This document shows positions 3,047 to 62,725 of a DNA stretch of 64,000 nucleotides, one piece after another (positions within the stretch are counted from its first letter, which is position 1; every line of letters begins with the position of its first letter). The notes beneath the pieces were generated by a model, which ran no database searches, was not told where the DNA came from, and saw only the letters and a list, made by a program, of their open reading frames with translations. This DNA is from an uncultured Acidobacteriaceae bacterium (lineage in GTDB: Bacteria; Acidobacteriota; Terriglobia; Terriglobales; Acidobacteriaceae). The stretch spans positions 169,347 through 233,346 of the forward strand of contig CAIVDV010000013.1 in the NCBI GenBank assembly GCA_903904755.1, given 5' to 3'. Both the position numbers and the translations under genes were made by a program.

Positions 3047-3201
3047 GCCGGCGTTATTAAACTTTCCTTCACAGCCGCTCCCTTATTAAACGTTTCCGCC
3101 CTTTCCTTTAATAAGGCGAAACCTTAAGAAAGAAAAACGCCAATTTCTTGAAGAACACAACGCCGAGCAGGCTGAGGATTACCTCCGAAGAAGCAAGTCT
3201 T

Positions 3202-3268
3202 GTGAAAGGGCATGACTTCAGTCGTGCCGCAAAGTCTGGATAAGAAGCGATGGGCTTCAGCCCCTGCA
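3202..3268. repeat. palindromic repeat modules (CATGACTTCAGTCGTG and GGGCTTCAGCCC types)
   Basis: TGTGAAAGGGCATGACTTCA with AGTCGTGCCG forms one hairpin and GGGCTTCAGCCCC a second, about 25 bases apart. The same pair, in the same order, recurs at 44329..44420, 44469..44560, 50545..50620 and 50818..50880. The remaining intergenic sequence (3047-3344) shows only TTATTAAAC direct repeats and no ORF. Confidence 0.75.
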
Positions 3269-3344
3269 TTCTGCTGGCGTCCCATGCCATGCAACAAGAT
3301 GCTTTTTTCGCCCATCCCTCCAAATCCAGCCCTTCCCCCACCTC

Positions 3345-5494: not shown

Positions 5495-5672
5495 GTGCCC
5501 CATCCATTCCACAGCCCCACCGTGGAATGGGTGGCAACCGCAAACACCCCGTGCACCATCACCCATCAACGTCGGGTGCCACCGGTCCCTCGCACTTGGG
5601 GACCGGTGCCGAATTCGAGCATAGCTCGAACCGCATTTGCCTTTCATGTTGTCACTCCCGCAGGGAGTCTGC
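5495..5672. repeat. composite of four palindromic modules
   Basis: Between mnmG and the AIM24 gene lie, in order: a hairpin GTGCCCCATCCATTCCAC / GTGGAATGGGTGGCA (5495..5536); a hairpin ACCGGTCCC / GGGGACCGGT (5581..5607); TTCGAGC-ATA-GCTCGAA (5613..5630); and GTCACTCCCGCAGGGAGTC (5651..5669). The last three occur in the same order at 50.7 kb and, with an extra hairpin inserted, at 61.8 and 62.3 kb. No ORF is supported in the gap 5439-5752. Confidence 0.75.
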
Positions 5673-30249: not shown

Positions 30250-30400
30250 AGGCTGCTGAAAAACTCCAATAAGGGGATGTTTTGTGAAGGGGCACGACTT
30301 CAGTCGTGCCGATAAGTCCAGTTAAATCAACGGGGCTTTAGCCCCTGAGGGATGTCTTTTCCCCTCGATTCCGCCAAAAGACTGCCTTTTTCAGCAGCCT
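30250..30400. repeat. 151-bp MITE-like element with perfect 14-bp terminal inverted repeats
   Basis: The element starts AGGCTGCTGAAAAA and ends with the exact reverse complement TTTTTCAGCAGCCT. It contains the hairpin GGCACGACTTCAGTCGTGCC, then a shared AATCAACGGGGCTTTAGCCCC stretch. Compared with 65..202 and 44566..44699 the ends and the CTTTAGCCC module are kept while the first hairpin differs. No ORF inside is credible. The rest of the gap 30206-30466 has nothing else. Confidence 0.8.
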
Positions 30401-41372: not shown

Positions 41373-44120
41373 ATGCCCCCTCGCGCCTCCATCAGCCACG
41401 GCATCACTCTCGTCCCGCTCTTCTACGCGGCCCTCCTTGTCATCGCCGGCATCACAGTCGGCCACGCCCTCTACCTCCGCCCCTCCTGGCTCCTCGCCGG
41501 CCTCCTCCCCCTCGCCGCCGTCGCCATCTACACCGCCCGCACCACCCCCCGCCTCGCCTGGCTCCCCGTCGCCGCCGTCTGGCTCACCCTCGGCGCCTGG
41601 GCCGTCCAAACCGAACCCCAGCCCGCCGTCTCACCCCTCGCCCCCTTCATCCAGGACAACCTCCTCCGCACCGTCCAGGGCCGCATCGTCGCTGCCGGCC
41701 CCCGCCACCCCACCCAGCCGGAAGAAGACCCCGACGCACCCGACACCGAACCCTCCGCCGCCACCCAGCGTGTCGATCTCGACATCTCCGCCGTCGAAAC
41801 CCTTTCTGACACCCGCGACCAGCTCACCCCCCTCCCCCCCTCCCCCGGCACCCCCACCCACCTCCGCCTCACCATCCACTGGCCCGCCGCCGGCTCCCTC
41901 ACCTGCGGCCAGCAGGTCCAGGCCATCGTCCAGCTCACCCCGCCAGAAACCTTCCGCGATCCCGGCGTCTGGGACCAGGCCACCTTCCTCGAATCCCAGG
42001 GCATCGCCGCTACCGCCGCCGTCCACGCCGGTCCCCGCCTCACCCTCACCCCCGGCCCCGTCCCCCTTACCGCCGCCTGCCTCCTCAACCGCTGGCAGCA
42101 GCGCGCCGTCTCCCGGCTCGAATCCCTCCCAGCCCTCACCCGCCACCTACCCGCCGCCTTCCGCATCACCCCCGACGACGCGGCCATGCTCGCCGCCCTC
42201 ATCGCCGGCGACCGCGGCTTCCTCACCTCCGGCCTCCGCTCCGGCTTTGAGCGCACCGGCTCCTTCCACCTCATCGTCGTCTCCGGCCTCCACCTCGCCG
42301 TCCTCGCCGGCTGCGTCTTCGCCCTCGCCCGCCGCCTGCGCCTCGGCCGCCTTCCCGCCACCCTCGCCACTCTCGCCATCGCCCTCGCCTACGCCCTCTT
42401 CACCGGCTGGGCCATCCCCGCCCAGCGCTCCTTCTGGATGATTGCCCTCTACCTCACAGGCCGCCTCCTCTATCGCGACCGCAACCCCCTCAATGTCATC
42501 GGCTTCGCCACCCTTTGCATCCTCGCCGTCAGCCCCGCCGCCCTCTTCACCGCCAGCCTCCAAATGACCCTCCTCTCCGTCGCCGCCATCGCCGGCATCG
42601 CCCTCCCTATCCTCGACGCCACCACCCGCCCCCTCCGCGAGGCCACCCGCGACCTCGACGCCATCCCCCTCGACATCCTCCTCCCCCCCCGCATCGCCCA
42701 CTTCCGCGTCATCCTCCGCCTCCTCTCTATCCACGCCGAGCCCGCCCTCAACCGCTGGCTCGCCTGGCACGTCCTCCCCCGCCTCCTCGCCGCCACCCTC
42801 CGCCTCGGCGAAATCATCTTCCTCTCCATCGTCGTCGAGCTCGCCCTCGCCCTCCCCATGGCCCAAAACTTCCACCGCATCACCCTCTACGCCCTCCCCG
42901 TCAACATGGTCCTCGTTCCCGTCCTCGCTCTCCTCGTCCCCCTCGCCATGCTTCTCCTCCTCGCCGTCTCCATCTGGCCCGCTGCCGCCATCCTCCCCGC
43001 AGCAGCCACCGCCCTCGTCCTCCACCTCAGCACCGCCGCCATCCGCTGGCTCGGCTCCCGCTGGCTCGCAGACTTCCGCATCCCCGCCCCATCTCCCCTC
43101 CAAACCCTCGCCGCCTTCGCCCTCTTCGCCCTCGCCCTCGTCCTCGCCCGCAACACCTCCCTCCCACCCCGCCTCCAGCGCCGCCTCGCCTTCGCCGCCG
43201 TCGCCGCCATGGCCCTCGTCAGCCTCTTCCCGCGCCCCATCCAGCACCCCGCCGGCGCCCTCCTCTTCCAGGTCATCGACGTCGGCCAGGGCGACTCCCT
43301 CCTCCTCATCACCCCCGAAGGCAAAACTCTCCTAATCGACGCCGGCGGCCAACCCAACTTCTACGACCATTCCGCTTCCCCAACCACCTCAAACTTCGAC
43401 ATCGGCGACCAGGTCGTCTCCAACGTCCTCTGGGCCCGCGGCATTCGCACCCTCGACGCCGTCGCCCTCTCCCACGCCCACCAGGACCACATGGGCGGCC
43501 TCCCCGCCATCCTCCGCAACTTCCACCCCCGCCAGCTCTGGGTCGGCAACAATCCCCCCATCCCCGCCTACCGCGCCCTTCTCGCCCAGGCCCAATCCCA
43601 GGGCACCGCCATCCAGCACCTCACCGCCGGGCAATCCCTCACTCTCGGCGCAGTCTCCTTCCGCGTCCTCGCCCCCCTGCCCGCCTACCAGCCCGGCCCC
43701 CAGCCCATCAACAACGACTCCCTAATCCTCCAGGCCACCTACGGCGTCACCTCCCTCCTCCTGCCCGGAGACGCCGAAGCCCCCGAAGAGGCATCCATCC
43801 TCCCCGAGGGCTCCCTCGCCAGCACCGTTCTCAAAGTCGGCCACCACGGCAGCATCACCAGCACCGGCCCCGCCCTGCTCGCCGCCGTCCACCCCGCCTT
43901 CGCCCTCATCTCCTGCGGACGCCACAACCACTTCGGCCATCCCCGCCCGGAAACCCTCGCAGCCCTCCAGGCCGCCCACGTCTTCACCCTCCGCACAGAC
44001 ACCGCCGGCACCGCCTGCCTCACCCTCGACGGCCACTCCGTCTCCCTCGCCCCCCTCTGCGGCACACCCCTCCCCCGCCCTTACCCCATTCTCGCGCCCA
44101 CCTCGAACCCCGCGCCGTAG
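41373..44120 (+). CDS. comEC: ComEC/Rec2-family DNA internalisation protein
   Basis: A 915-residue competence protein forming the inner-membrane channel for single-stranded DNA. An N-terminal DUF4131 domain with three membrane segments is followed by the ComEC 'competence' helices (IVVSGLHLAVLAGCVFALAR ... FTGWAIPAQRSFWMIALYLTGRLL). The C-terminal metallo-beta-lactamase-like domain carries VIDVGQGDSLLLITPEGKTLLIDAGG, SHAHQDHMGGLP and KVGHHGSITSTG. The last few codons and the stop codon (TSNPAP, TAG) belong to a dispersed palindromic repeat that starts inside the gene (44109..44200). No other competence gene is near. Confidence 0.93.
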   Translation: MPPRASISHGITLVPLFYAALLVIAGITVGHALYLRPSWLLAGLLPLAAVAIYTARTTPRLAWLPVAAVWLTLGAWAVQTEPQPAVSPLAPFIQDNLLRTVQGRIVAAGPRHPTQPEEDPDAPDTEPSAATQRVDLDISAVETLSDTRDQLTPLPPSPGTPTHLRLTIHWPAAGSLTCGQQVQAIVQLTPPETFRDPGVWDQATFLESQGIAATAAVHAGPRLTLTPGPVPLTAACLLNRWQQRAVSRLESLPALTRHLPAAFRITPDDAAMLAALIAGDRGFLTSGLRSGFERTGSFHLIVVSGLHLAVLAGCVFALARRLRLGRLPATLATLAIALAYALFTGWAIPAQRSFWMIALYLTGRLLYRDRNPLNVIGFATLCILAVSPAALFTASLQMTLLSVAAIAGIALPILDATTRPLREATRDLDAIPLDILLPPRIAHFRVILRLLSIHAEPALNRWLAWHVLPRLLAATLRLGEIIFLSIVVELALALPMAQNFHRITLYALPVNMVLVPVLALLVPLAMLLLLAVSIWPAAAILPAAATALVLHLSTAAIRWLGSRWLADFRIPAPSPLQTLAAFALFALALVLARNTSLPPRLQRRLAFAAVAAMALVSLFPRPIQHPAGALLFQVIDVGQGDSLLLITPEGKTLLIDAGGQPNFYDHSASPTTSNFDIGDQVVSNVLWARGIRTLDAVALSHAHQDHMGGLPAILRNFHPRQLWVGNNPPIPAYRALLAQAQSQGTAIQHLTAGQSLTLGAVSFRVLAPLPAYQPGPQPINNDSLILQATYGVTSLLLPGDAEAPEEASILPEGSLASTVLKVGHHGSITSTGPALLAAVHPAFALISCGRHNHFGHPRPETLAALQAAHVFTLRTDTAGTACLTLDGHSVSLAPLCGTPLPRPYPILAPTSNPAP

Positions 44121-44200
44121 GCGCAGCGTATCTTAGCCCAGCGATTCATCGCTGGGAATGCGCAACCCAAATCCCCGGAGTCCCGTAGGGACGGCGCCCC
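44109..44200. repeat. palindromic composite overlapping the comEC stop codon
   Basis: A CCGCGCCGTAGGCGC segment, the hairpin CCCAGCGATTCATCGCTGGG and a GTCCCGTAGGGAC hairpin occur in order. The same three, with only a few changes, occur at 62081..62172 in non-coding sequence. The similarity runs through the comEC TAG at 44118..44120, so the stop is part of the repeat. Confidence 0.7.
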
Positions 44201-44285: not shown

Positions 44286-44564
44286 TCACACGCTGCTGAC
44301 AAACTCTACTGGAGTGATGTTTTGTGAAAGGGCACGACTTCAGTCTTCGGGGGCTTTGTGAAAGGGCACGACTTCAGTCGTGCCGCAGATGCGCGATAAG
44401 AGAGAGCGGGCTTCAGCCCCTGCAAACCGCCGGCGACCGAAAGAATCTCATCCAACGCTTCCGCAATGTTTTGTAACAGGCCACGACTTCAATCTTGGGG
44501 GCTTTGTGAAAGGGCACGACTTCAGTCGTGCCGCAAATGCTCGATACAAAGGGGCGGGCTTCAC
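44286..44564. repeat. two 78-bp blocks of CACGACTTCAGTCGTG-type hairpins
   Basis: A block starting TTTTGTGAAAGGGCACGACT at 44329 and a diverged copy starting TTTTGTAACAGGCCACGACT at 44469 each contain a defective and then a complete GGCACGACTTCAGTCGTGCC hairpin separated by GGGGGCTTTGTGAAA. Each is followed by a GGGCTTCA module. A weak left end of the MITE type (CGCTGCTGACAAAC) stands at 44290. The gap 44201-44285 has nothing I can name. Confidence 0.65.
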
Positions 44565-44565
44565 A

Positions 44566-44699
44566 TGCTGCTGAAAAACTCTTTTTTTGGTAGGCCGGGG
44601 TTTTAACCACGGCATAAAGCCAATGGAATCAACGTGGCTTTAGCCCATGAGGTATGATTTTCGCGGCTTTTTCCCGCACATCACCCTCTTTCAGCAGCC
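44566..44699. repeat. MITE-like element, second copy of the 65..202 type
   Basis: The element begins TGCTGCTGAAAAA and ends TTTCAGCAGCC. Its interior (GGTAGGCCGGGGTTTTA, GGCATAA-GCCAATGGAATCAACG, a CTTTAGCCC module, then TTTTCGCGGCTTT) follows the order of 65..202 almost base for base, with about one difference in seven. This conservation across 44 kb argues for copying rather than chance. Confidence 0.75.
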
Positions 44700-50382: not shown

Positions 50383-50940
50383 ATTCGAACAAAGCTCGAA
50401 CCCGCCTTGGCCTTTGCTTTTGCTTTTGGCCTTTGCTTCTCTTGTTGTCATTCCCAACAGGGAATCTGCTTCTGCCTTTGCTTCTGCTTCTGCCTTTGCC
50501 TTTCTGTCTGTCATTCCCAACAGGGAATCTGCTGTCGCCTTTGCCTTGTAAAAGGGCATGACTTCAGTCATGCCGCAAACGCTCGATAAAAGAAAGAGGG
50601 CTTCAGCCCCTGCACACAGCCACCGCCAAAAGAAGTTCCATGAGCCGCGTTCCAAGTGCTTTAGGACAATCGCCGGGTGCCACCGGTCCCTCGCACTTGG
50701 GGACCGGTGACGCATTCGAGCAACGCTCGAACCCGCCCTCGCCCTTGCTTTTGCTTTTGGCCTTTGCTTTTCTGTCTGTCATTCCAACAGGGAATCTGCT
50801 GTTGCCTTTGCCTTGTAAAAGGGCATGACTTCAGTCATGCCGCAAACGCTCTATAAAAGACGGAGGGCTTCAGCCCCTGCACACAGCCAGCGCCAAAAGA
50901 AGTTCAATGAGCCGCGCTCCAAGTGCATTGGGACAATCGC
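50383..50940. repeat. directly repeated composite of palindromic modules
   Basis: Two units lie in tandem (50383..50673 and 50712..50940), each with TTCGA(G/A)C-GCTCGAA, an ATTCC-AACAGGGAAT-CTGCT hairpin, a TGCCTTTGCCTTGTAAAAGG stretch, CATGACTTCAGTCATG and GGGCTTCAGCCCCTGCACAC. The last hundred bases of the two units are over 90 percent alike. The GTGCCACCGGTCCC / GGGGACCGGT hairpin lies between them. The region is CT-rich and contains no gene. Confidence 0.75.
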
Positions 50941-55639: not shown

Positions 55640-55720
55640 TTTTGTTTTGTGAAAGGGCACGACTTCAGTCGTGCCGATCAGCCTCTTGGAATCAGAGGGC
55701 TTTAGCCCCTGAGGGACGAA
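55640..55720. repeat. CACGACTTCAGTCGTG and GGGCTTTAGCCCC modules at the parD 3' end
   Basis: TTTTGTGAAAGGGCACGACT completing a GGCACGACTTCAGTCGTGCC hairpin is followed by GGAATCAGAGGGCTTTAGCC and CCTGAGGGACG. The order is the same as inside 30250..30400. The minus-strand parD-like ORF reads into it and takes its stop codon from it. Confidence 0.75.
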
Positions 55721-61618: not shown

Positions 61619-61776
61619 CCTTGCCCCCGAAAAGCGTACCTCACATAGAGCTCTGAGATACTGGCGAAGGAGCGGCGAAGATGGTGCGTATACCGAGGAA
61701 GATTTACACCTGCGAGTTCAAGATGGAAGCGGTTCGGCTGGTTGAGTCGAGCCAGAGTGTTGCGTCGGCGGCGCGG
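61619..61776 (+). mobile_element. remnant of the left end of an IS3-type insertion sequence
   Basis: After TGACCTTGCCCCCGAAAAG, which resembles an IS3-family left end, ATG 61681 opens MVRIPRKIYTCEFKMEAVRLVESSQSVASAAR, the helix-turn-helix start of IS3-family OrfA transposases, with GGAG upstream. After AAR the frame enters the palindromic composite at 61776 and reads nothing related. The IS has been reduced to about 160 bases, and it supplies or overlaps the stop codon of the preceding gene. Confidence 0.7.
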
Positions 61777-61925
61777 GCCGGCGGGTGCCACCGGTCCGGG
61801 GTCCCCGAGGACAGGTCCACGTCCTCGGGGTGGTGCTCCCTCGCACTCGGGAACCGGTGACGCATTCGAGCAACGCTCGAACCCGCTCCTGCCTCTCTTG
61901 CTGTCATCCCCGACAGGGAATCTGC
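61776..61925. repeat. composite with a 42-bp hairpin nested in the ACCGGTCC module
   Basis: In the simple copies (5581, 50682) ACCGGTCC is followed directly by CTCGCACT. Here 42 bases (61798..61839) stand between, with stem CCCCGAGGAC / GTCCTCGGGG and loop AGGTCCAC. The usual TTCGAGC-GCTCGAA and ATCCCCGACAGGGAAT modules follow. An almost identical 150-base copy lies at 62342..62491. Confidence 0.8.
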
Positions 61926-62080
61926 TTCCGCCTTTGCCCTTTTCCTCGTCAGTCCCCAGGGCAACCCGCCACCACACCCGAACCCACCACCAACCCCGCC
62001 GGATGCACCAAATCTGGGGGCGCTCTTTGCGGTCAGATGTGGGTGCCCCCGTCCCCACCCTCTTCCAGCGCACCTCGCAC

Positions 62081-62172
62081 CCCGCGCCGTAGGCGCACCG
62101 TACCTTAGCCCAGCGATTCATCGCTGGGTACGCACATCCAACAACACCCCGGAGTCCCGCAGGGACGGTGGA
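62081..62172. repeat. second copy of the comEC-end composite
   Basis: CCGCGCCGTAGGCGC, CCCAGCGATTCATCGCTGGG and a GTCCCGCAGGGAC hairpin appear in the order seen at 44109..44200. Here the DNA is non-coding, showing that the sequence at the comEC end is a mobile or copied repeat and not comEC sequence proper. Confidence 0.7.
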
Positions 62173-62226
62173 CAGCCGACTCACCCCTCCAAGTTTTTTA
62201 CCCAACCTACTACAACCGCCGGGGTG

Positions 62227-62308
62227 CCCAACCCTCGCCACACCTTTGTTTTTGTGGCTAGGGACCCCCGCAGACAGGTCTGCGCCTGCGGGGAAATCGA
62301 GGGTGGGT
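62227..62308. repeat. hairpin with AGGTCTGC loop nested between outer CCCTCG arms
   Basis: An outer stem CCCAACCCTCG / CGAGGGTGGG encloses an inner hairpin CCCCGCAGAC / GCCTGCGGGG (62266..62293) with loop AGGTCTGC, a variant of the 42-bp hairpin. A short GCCACA / TGTGGC stem stands before it. The outer arms resemble the GTGCCCCATCC-type module. Confidence 0.6.
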
Positions 62309-62341
62309 AAGCCAAATCTCCCACATTCGTCATCCAGAGCG

Positions 62342-62491
62342 GGCCGGCGGGTGCCACCGGTCCGGGGTCCCCGAGGACAGGTCCACGTCCTCGGGGTGGT
62401 GCTCCCTCGCACTTGGGGACCGGTGACGCATTCGAGCAACGCTCGAACCCGCTCCTGCCTCTCTTGTTGTCATCCCCGACAGGGAATCTGC
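62342..62491. repeat. second copy of the nested composite
   Basis: It repeats 61776..61925 with only a few base differences over 150 bases, including the same 42-bp hairpin at the same place inside the ACCGGTCC module. The two copies lie in direct orientation 566 bases apart. Confidence 0.8.
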
Positions 62492-62683
62492 TCCGCCCTT
62501 CCTCTTCCAGTCGTCATTCCCCAGGGCAACCCGTCACCACCCCCGACCCCACCGCCGGAAACGCCGCCGCCAACCCCGCCCCGCCCAACGTCCCCTTCGC
62601 CACCCGGCGACCCTCGGCATCATACAGATACTCTGTCGCACCGCTGCCACCCACCAGCGACTCCACAGCGATCGTACTCTTCC

Positions 62684-62725
62684 GGGGCCCCCACAGACAG
62701 GTCCACGTCTGTGGGGTGGTTCGCC
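62684..62725. repeat. 42-bp hairpin inserted in frame in the RHS gene
   Basis: Stem CCCCACAGAC / GTCTGTGGGG with loop AGGTCCAC, flanked by GGGGC and GGTGGTTCGCC. It aligns end to end with the 42-base insert at 61798..61839 although half of each stem differs. Being 42 bases long it adds exactly 14 codons. Confidence 0.75.

Follow-up and report, generated by a model that had tools for sequence, protein, structure and literature searches.

What are the short CCCC..GGGG hairpins that stand between positions 61796 and 62719 in a stretch of DNA from an uncultured Acidobacteriaceae bacterium? The stretch comprises 64,000 nucleotides (assembly GCA_903904755.1, contig CAIVDV010000013.1, positions 169,347 to 233,346) and is called the window below. 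The original prediction saw a 42-bp hairpin in three copies with paired stem changes and a constant loop, and took it for a folded mobile unit served by an enzyme encoded elsewhere. Our analysis makes it quite likely that these hairpins represent copies of a mobile element of Acidobacteriaceae that is ultra-small and non-autonomous. They belong to a hairpin family, formerly without a name, that is found in soil Acidobacteriaceae and in some viral contigs. The literature that we searched, which left most subscription journals outside its coverage, contained no paper naming or describing the element and none for its peptide string.

The hairpin cores lie at 61803-61830, 62266-62293, 62369-62396 and 62689-62716, where they had been predicted, and the pattern CCCCNNNGACAGGTCYRCGYCNNNGGGG matches four times within the window against a shuffled expectation of 0.00. 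The four hairpins resolve into three intact copies and one degenerate relative. The full unit measures 38 nt and occupies 61796-61833, 62362-62399 and 62682-62719. Copy 1 (plus strand, CCGGGGTCCCCGAGGACAGGTCCACGTCCTCGGGGTGG, 38 nt) matches the pattern and scores 59.4 bits with the covariance model in its own genome. It splits a host palindrome, GTGCCACCGGTCC..GGGAACCGGTG, at the inner end of the palindrome's 5' arm; by direct reading the filled palindrome spans approximately 61787-61860. Compared with its empty form, the filled site has gained 42 bp, and the host palindrome has 40 related places in the genome of origin. Empty palindromes of the sequence GTGCCACCGGTCCCTCGCACTTGGGGACCGGTG (repeat family D11) stand on the plus strand at 5576-5608 and 50677-50709. 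The predicted 42 bp is made up of the 38-nt element and 4 additional bases that stand with it at the palindromes of the window. Copy 2 (plus strand) is identical to copy 1, and its host palindrome (approximately 62353-62426) lies within a 162-bp duplicate of the first. Because the 61803 and 62369 hairpins, with identical cores, both sit in this duplicated 162-bp block (96% identity), they are not independent. Copy 3 (plus strand, CCGGGGCCCCCACAGACAGGTCCACGTCTGTGGGGTGG) runs antisense within an RHS/YD-repeat coding remnant and reads ..YDPEGRTTPQTWTCLWGPRKSTIAVES.. on the minus strand; the RHS repeat match around it is slightly under the Pfam cut-off (20.6 vs. 22 bits). A second RHS-like remnant in the same genome (L001) has an element copy at the same place. 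The 62266 hairpin (62261-62293, plus strand, GGGACCCCCGCAGACAGGTCTGCGCCTGCGGGG; 28.5 bits, E 2.5e-4) reads as a weak relative only, since both conserved ends, CCGGGG and TGG, are missing. Of the three predicted copies, then, one is a weak relative and one has an identical duplicate, and further copies occur across Acidobacteriaceae.

The unit can be written CCGGGG[T/C]CCCC-stem-loop-stem-GGGGTGG, with a length of 38 nt in the window and 34-47 nt elsewhere. Column counts of 192 distinct copies gave the consensus CCGGGG[T/C]CCCC-NNN-GACAGGTC-NNN-GTC-n'n'n'-GGGGTGG. The strict GACAGGTC pattern was abandoned as a definition of the family because it underestimated it; the ends alone define the element. 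An ends-only pattern, CCGGGGYCCCCN{12,34}GGGGTGG, matched in 67 of 150 family genomes and 38 of 79 genera, and its reversed control had 0 matches in any genome. In a viral set, 60 of 91 matches were palindromic and about a third were not, which makes that count an upper bound. The ends-only matches (34-47 nt) vary in stem and loop sequence by lineage. The predicted constancy of the loop holds inside the window subfamily (AGGTC[CT]NN), and other subfamilies have different loops. Because stems and loops differ by lineage, the AGGTCCAC loop with its AGGTC marks one subfamily and not the element. A first reading as a 36-nt core with a 6-8 nt duplication gave way to 38 nt for the element and 3-5 nt for the duplication, since the CC ahead of GGGG belongs to the element.

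On sequence comparison, mobility is demonstrated by empty and filled sites, by orthologues free of the insert and by target duplications above shuffled controls. These data and the many copies bear out the predicted mobile unit. Host palindromes were found in empty and filled forms of 20 and 62 bp (GGCACGACTTCAGTCGTGCC), 28 and 70 bp (CCCCAGGTCCCGATTCTGGGACCTGGGA), 33 and 75 bp (the window palindrome), and 27 and 65-66 bp (GTGGCTTTTTCCTCAAGAAAAAGCCAC). Queries that joined the two flanks matched continuous empty sites in orthologous genes (rnr and the gene of an ISAs1-type transposase). An RNase R gene (L011) contains a 42-bp in-frame insert, flanked by CACT(AC), that is missing in relatives. 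Another insert follows DGK in a transposase gene, which we take to be the ISAs1 type, and is absent from orthologues. Exact 4-nt target duplications flank 11 of 118 copies compared to 0.9 expected, or 37 compared to 7.4 with one mismatch allowed. In a second independent set (107 copies in the consensus), at most one mismatch gave 4-nt duplications in 22 copies vs. 6.5 and 5-nt duplications in 12 vs. 1.55. The element goes in as one unit, and the duplicated length varies, being 3-5 bp and sometimes 0 or 7 bp.

Such duplications, together with fixed ends that both begin with CC and reach CCCC, would also be expected of a relic of a DDE-type insertion sequence, akin to a miniature inverted-repeat transposable element (MITE), with short asymmetric ends and moved in trans by that transposase. 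The spread of duplication lengths from 0 to 7 argues against this origin, as does the absence of an enriched gene family beside the copies, other than in related phages that have the same insertion in common. Moreover, complementarity of the interior is kept far past the ends, which a duplex-recognising transposase does not need. We therefore regard a DDE relic as unlikely. MITEs share with the element its non-autonomy and short duplications, but they are 70-300 bp long (PMC3733652), whereas the element is far shorter, has no clean terminal inverted repeats and must pair over its whole body.

The paired stem changes of the original prediction recur at large scale. Stem pairs swap among GC, CG, AT and TA in the 192 copies. 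Set A2 comprises 50 sequences, with pairing in 96.4% of cells and a covariation score of 0.263 vs. 0.088 shuffled. An independent 43-nt subfamily (41 sequences) is 95.3% paired and has 8 pairs changed on both sides; its covariation score of 0.407 exceeds both the shuffled value (0.131) and the slid values (no more than 0.078). In the genus labelled g35, the inner GAC/GTC has become AAC/GTT, another paired change. The folded form is under constraint; the interior is free in sequence but is kept self-complementary. The mismatches are asymmetric, with 159 G.T against 34 A.C among 269 distinct elements. Because G.T is tolerated on the strand written here, where the opposite strand would carry A.C mismatches, we infer that this strand is the one recognised folded.

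Paired changes could also arise with no transposition at all, if replication slippage and template switching made or duplicated the hairpins and arm-templated correction made the changes. The element does form head-to-tail arrays at a spacing of 41-43 bp, and one junction has CC microhomology. However, dozens of genera, and viral contigs as well, have the same ends at sites that are unrelated to one another. Correction would erase G.T pairs and leave no strand bias, yet the first variable pair is G.T in 83 of the 269 copies (31%). The G.T bias fits selection on the fold of one strand better than arm-to-arm correction, and we consider the slippage origin very unlikely. A covarying stem is likewise a property of structured RNAs, such as an attenuator or small RNA with a host function. 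Rfam gave no match to the element and, at E up to 1, only the neighbouring Acido-Lenti-1. Copies occur in either orientation, inside coding regions and other repeats as well as on viral contigs; their presence is patchy within a genus, and no conserved position upstream of orthologous genes was seen. A host RNA is thus extremely improbable.

The predicted location inside other palindromes is borne out statistically. With arms of at least 7 bp, both at most 8 nt from the element, nesting in the loops of other palindromes was found 17 times vs. 1.8 expected and 14 times vs. 1.15. Palindrome GGCACGACTTCAGTCGTGCC belongs to an intergenic repeat of the window (3200-3282, 44356-44586, 50546-50895, 30278-30334 and 55643-55699) and serves as an element target in relatives (L131, L160). 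Rfam Acido-Lenti-1 has two matches in the window, 62083-62128 and 44111-44156 (minus strand), which read as AGCCCAGCG..CGCTGGGT palindromes. Elsewhere (L485, L490, L494), AGCCCAG..CTGGGT palindromes akin to these matches carry the element in their loop. What is classed as the Acido-Lenti-1 RNA may, to some extent, be a palindromic repeat of intergenic regions.

Genes are targets as well. In-frame insertions, of which there are many, were found in alaS, gltX, glyQ, gatB, murD, ispE and rnr, and NCBIfam names the hosts as AlaS, GltX, GlyQ, GatB, MurD, IspE, RNase R and threonine/serine dehydratase. Some of these housekeeping genes are essential in other bacteria. The in-frame copies add the peptide GVPxDRSSSxGW or a close one. 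The RNase R genes of two species (L011, L222) have the element at the same place, which suggests long persistence or a repeated target. Copies also lie inside transposase genes reading as ISAs1-type (L363, G429:C15) and IS256-type (L285, G358:C113); therefore the element can hitch-hike on insertion sequences.

The genome of origin contains 9 strict copies, or 12 by the covariance model. Strict copies occur in 7 of 100 family genomes and in none of the reversed controls. Among the matches listed for GTDB species, nearly all those titled with a group are Acidobacteriaceae or Acidobacteria, and the few isolated others look like chance. Across the phylum, 34 of 396 genomes were positive, and 30 of these belong to Acidobacteriaceae. 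Presence is patchy even inside one genus. The finished-quality genome G533 of genus g35 has 97 detected copies. In this genus (G187, G246, G421, G533 and relatives; L302-L361, L426-L445), the element forms the centre of a mosaic repeat of about 100 bp, GGTATACAAGTCACGAAGTGACCGCC..element..GCGCAGTGGGCCCGTCCGGCAGGAC. Among viral contigs of IMG/VR, 45 stretches contain the element, and annotated phages gave no match to the window stretch. One contig of 134 kb classed as viral, IMGVR_UViG_3300035696_000011, carries roughly a dozen strict copies that differ in their stems (L063, L071, L083, L086, L091, L096, L102); it is either a large element-rich phage or a misclassified host contig.

Which enzyme could move the element? 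The original prediction pointed to a TnpA-REP or IS200-type activity, and the element may be a strict repetitive extragenic palindrome (REP) moved through single-stranded hairpins by a REP-associated tyrosine transposase (RAYT, TnpA-REP) or another Y1 transposase. The small size of the hairpin, the conserved motif next to its foot, the favouring of one strand and the insertion into hairpin loops, which suits single-strand targets, speak for this route. The covariation and G.T bias would also be compatible with folded single-strand recognition as in IS200/IS605 elements. Those elements insert without target duplication, whereas duplications of 3-5 bp are above chance here. Y1 transposases (PF01797) occur in 88% of family genomes, irrespective of the presence of the element. 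No PF01797 match was found in the 97-copy G533 or in G320 and G196 (5 copies each), although the gene may since have been lost. In genus g35, copy number was uncorrelated with Y1 number (rho 0.20, p 0.23). The covariance model found only 3 weak hairpins in 79 Y1 loci, none bounding the Y1 gene, so the hairpin-flanked gene that the original prediction proposed to look for was not found among them. The element encodes no enzyme, as predicted, and one may be encoded elsewhere; service by a TnpA-REP or IS200-type enzyme is left unsupported. As to the motif, Opitutus REPs have GTGG-type tags (PMC3733652), and TnpA-REP cleavage shifts to CC with a GTGG variant (PMC8266576), both of which favour the REP route. 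Against it, the sequence 5' of the hairpin is CCGGGG[T/C] in both the 192 and the 107 copies and not a GTAG tag, and the arrays are head-to-tail, with none of the inverse dimers typical of REPs. We judge movement by a Y1 transposase to be rather improbable.

Some hairpins were considered as transposon ends and rejected. At L271 the hairpin proved to be an isolated, degenerate copy about 600 bp from a Y1 gene, at the start of what is presumably a ppdK-like gene, and the matches at L233 and L408 are further element copies with other loops. In the genome of origin, one Y1 transposase gene (L253, G000:C15) adjoins a repeat of its own (MPEISPESRRDGA-coding), unrelated to the hairpin.

A transcribed hairpin could instead be reverse transcribed into staggered breaks, the RNA-copy route proposed for the small dispersed repeats (SDR) of Nostoc. 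Short variable duplications and a strand with G.U-compatible pairs are in agreement with this route. RVT_1 had no match in G421 (24 copies) or G525 (23 copies), and copy number in genus g35 did not follow the number of reverse transcriptases (rho 0.02). The RNA route therefore has a low probability in our view.

The element resembles several known systems. The Nostoc SDR, which Elhai and colleagues reportedly described in 2008, are said to be ultra-short mobile hairpins of 21-27 nt with compensatory changes, nested in other repeats, and the element is likewise ultra-short, covarying, nested and mobile. By this description, the SDR differ in being cyanobacterial and 21-27 nt long, whereas the element has 34-47 nt and fixed CCGGGG/GGGGTGG ends. 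The SDR are not known to have a sequence in common with the element, and in-frame residence in many essential genes is not a known theme for them. Rickettsia palindromic elements (RPE) are in-frame palindromes in housekeeping genes with a shared peptide and no known transposase (PMC10969869, PMC3733652). Our element also stands in frame within protein genes and adds a shared peptide. RPE, described as about 150 bp long, differ in host group and sequence; our element has only 34-47 nt and conserved ends, its interior varies freely while covarying, and 3-5 bp of the target are duplicated. CGTC-tagged repeats lack a transposase of their own and carry a CCA tail that is not paired (PMC3733652). 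Like these and REP/REPIN, the element is a palindrome in the 20-50 nt range with a motif beside the stem, and its minus strand also reads CCA. Unlike CGTC repeats, it ends in ACCCCGG with no CGTC, and its foot is CCCC/GGGG and not AT-rich. It departs from REP/RAYT systems in having no 5' GTAG tag and no inverse dimers, with copies within genes and a target duplication. The element is thus comparable to RPE and SDR but is a member of neither, and by the features tested it is not a RAYT-type REP.

We return to the reading as a non-autonomous mobile element, against which several points must be weighed. The extra bases TGCT at the two palindromes of the window match the expected CGGT only partly, and many copies have no recognisable duplication. 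The shuffle controls remove relatedness incompletely, even though copies with identical flanks were left out. One stem position accounts for part of the G.T bias. In G187, G246, G421 and G533, almost every copy examined lies within the composite intergenic repeat of about 100 bp, so in g35 the element may spread as a passenger and copy number may reflect the composite and not the bare element. Movement itself was not observed, and no enzyme was found (DDE transposases lay outside the families checked).

If the hairpins do represent such an element, a trans-acting activity would recognise the foot of the hairpin and the end sequences, probably on a folded single strand. Through short staggered breaks, the hairpin would be joined to single-stranded DNA that lies exposed, for example in the loops of hairpins that are extruded or form on the lagging strand. 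The element would spread without any coding of its own, and coding insertions would persist where the overall inserted length is divisible by three (38+4 = 42). We advance more tentatively, and at less than even confidence, that it represents a distinct class: ultra-small mobile DNA recognised, as a folded single strand, by its shape and its ends. Such DNA would enter the single-stranded loops of hairpins, leaving short staggered duplications, by means of an enzyme family new to elements of this kind, and would have reshaped essential proteins in Acidobacteriaceae again and again.

For the question of how palindromes of the RPE, SDR and CGTC types move, this family offers a testable case: its copies are numerous, its ends exact and its interior free, and it provides target duplications along with sites in both empty and filled form. 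Finished-quality genomes without known Y1 or reverse-transcriptase genes narrow the search for the enzyme. For the host proteins, the in-frame copies indicate that aminoacyl-tRNA synthetases, MurD and RNase R tolerate insertions of 14 residues.
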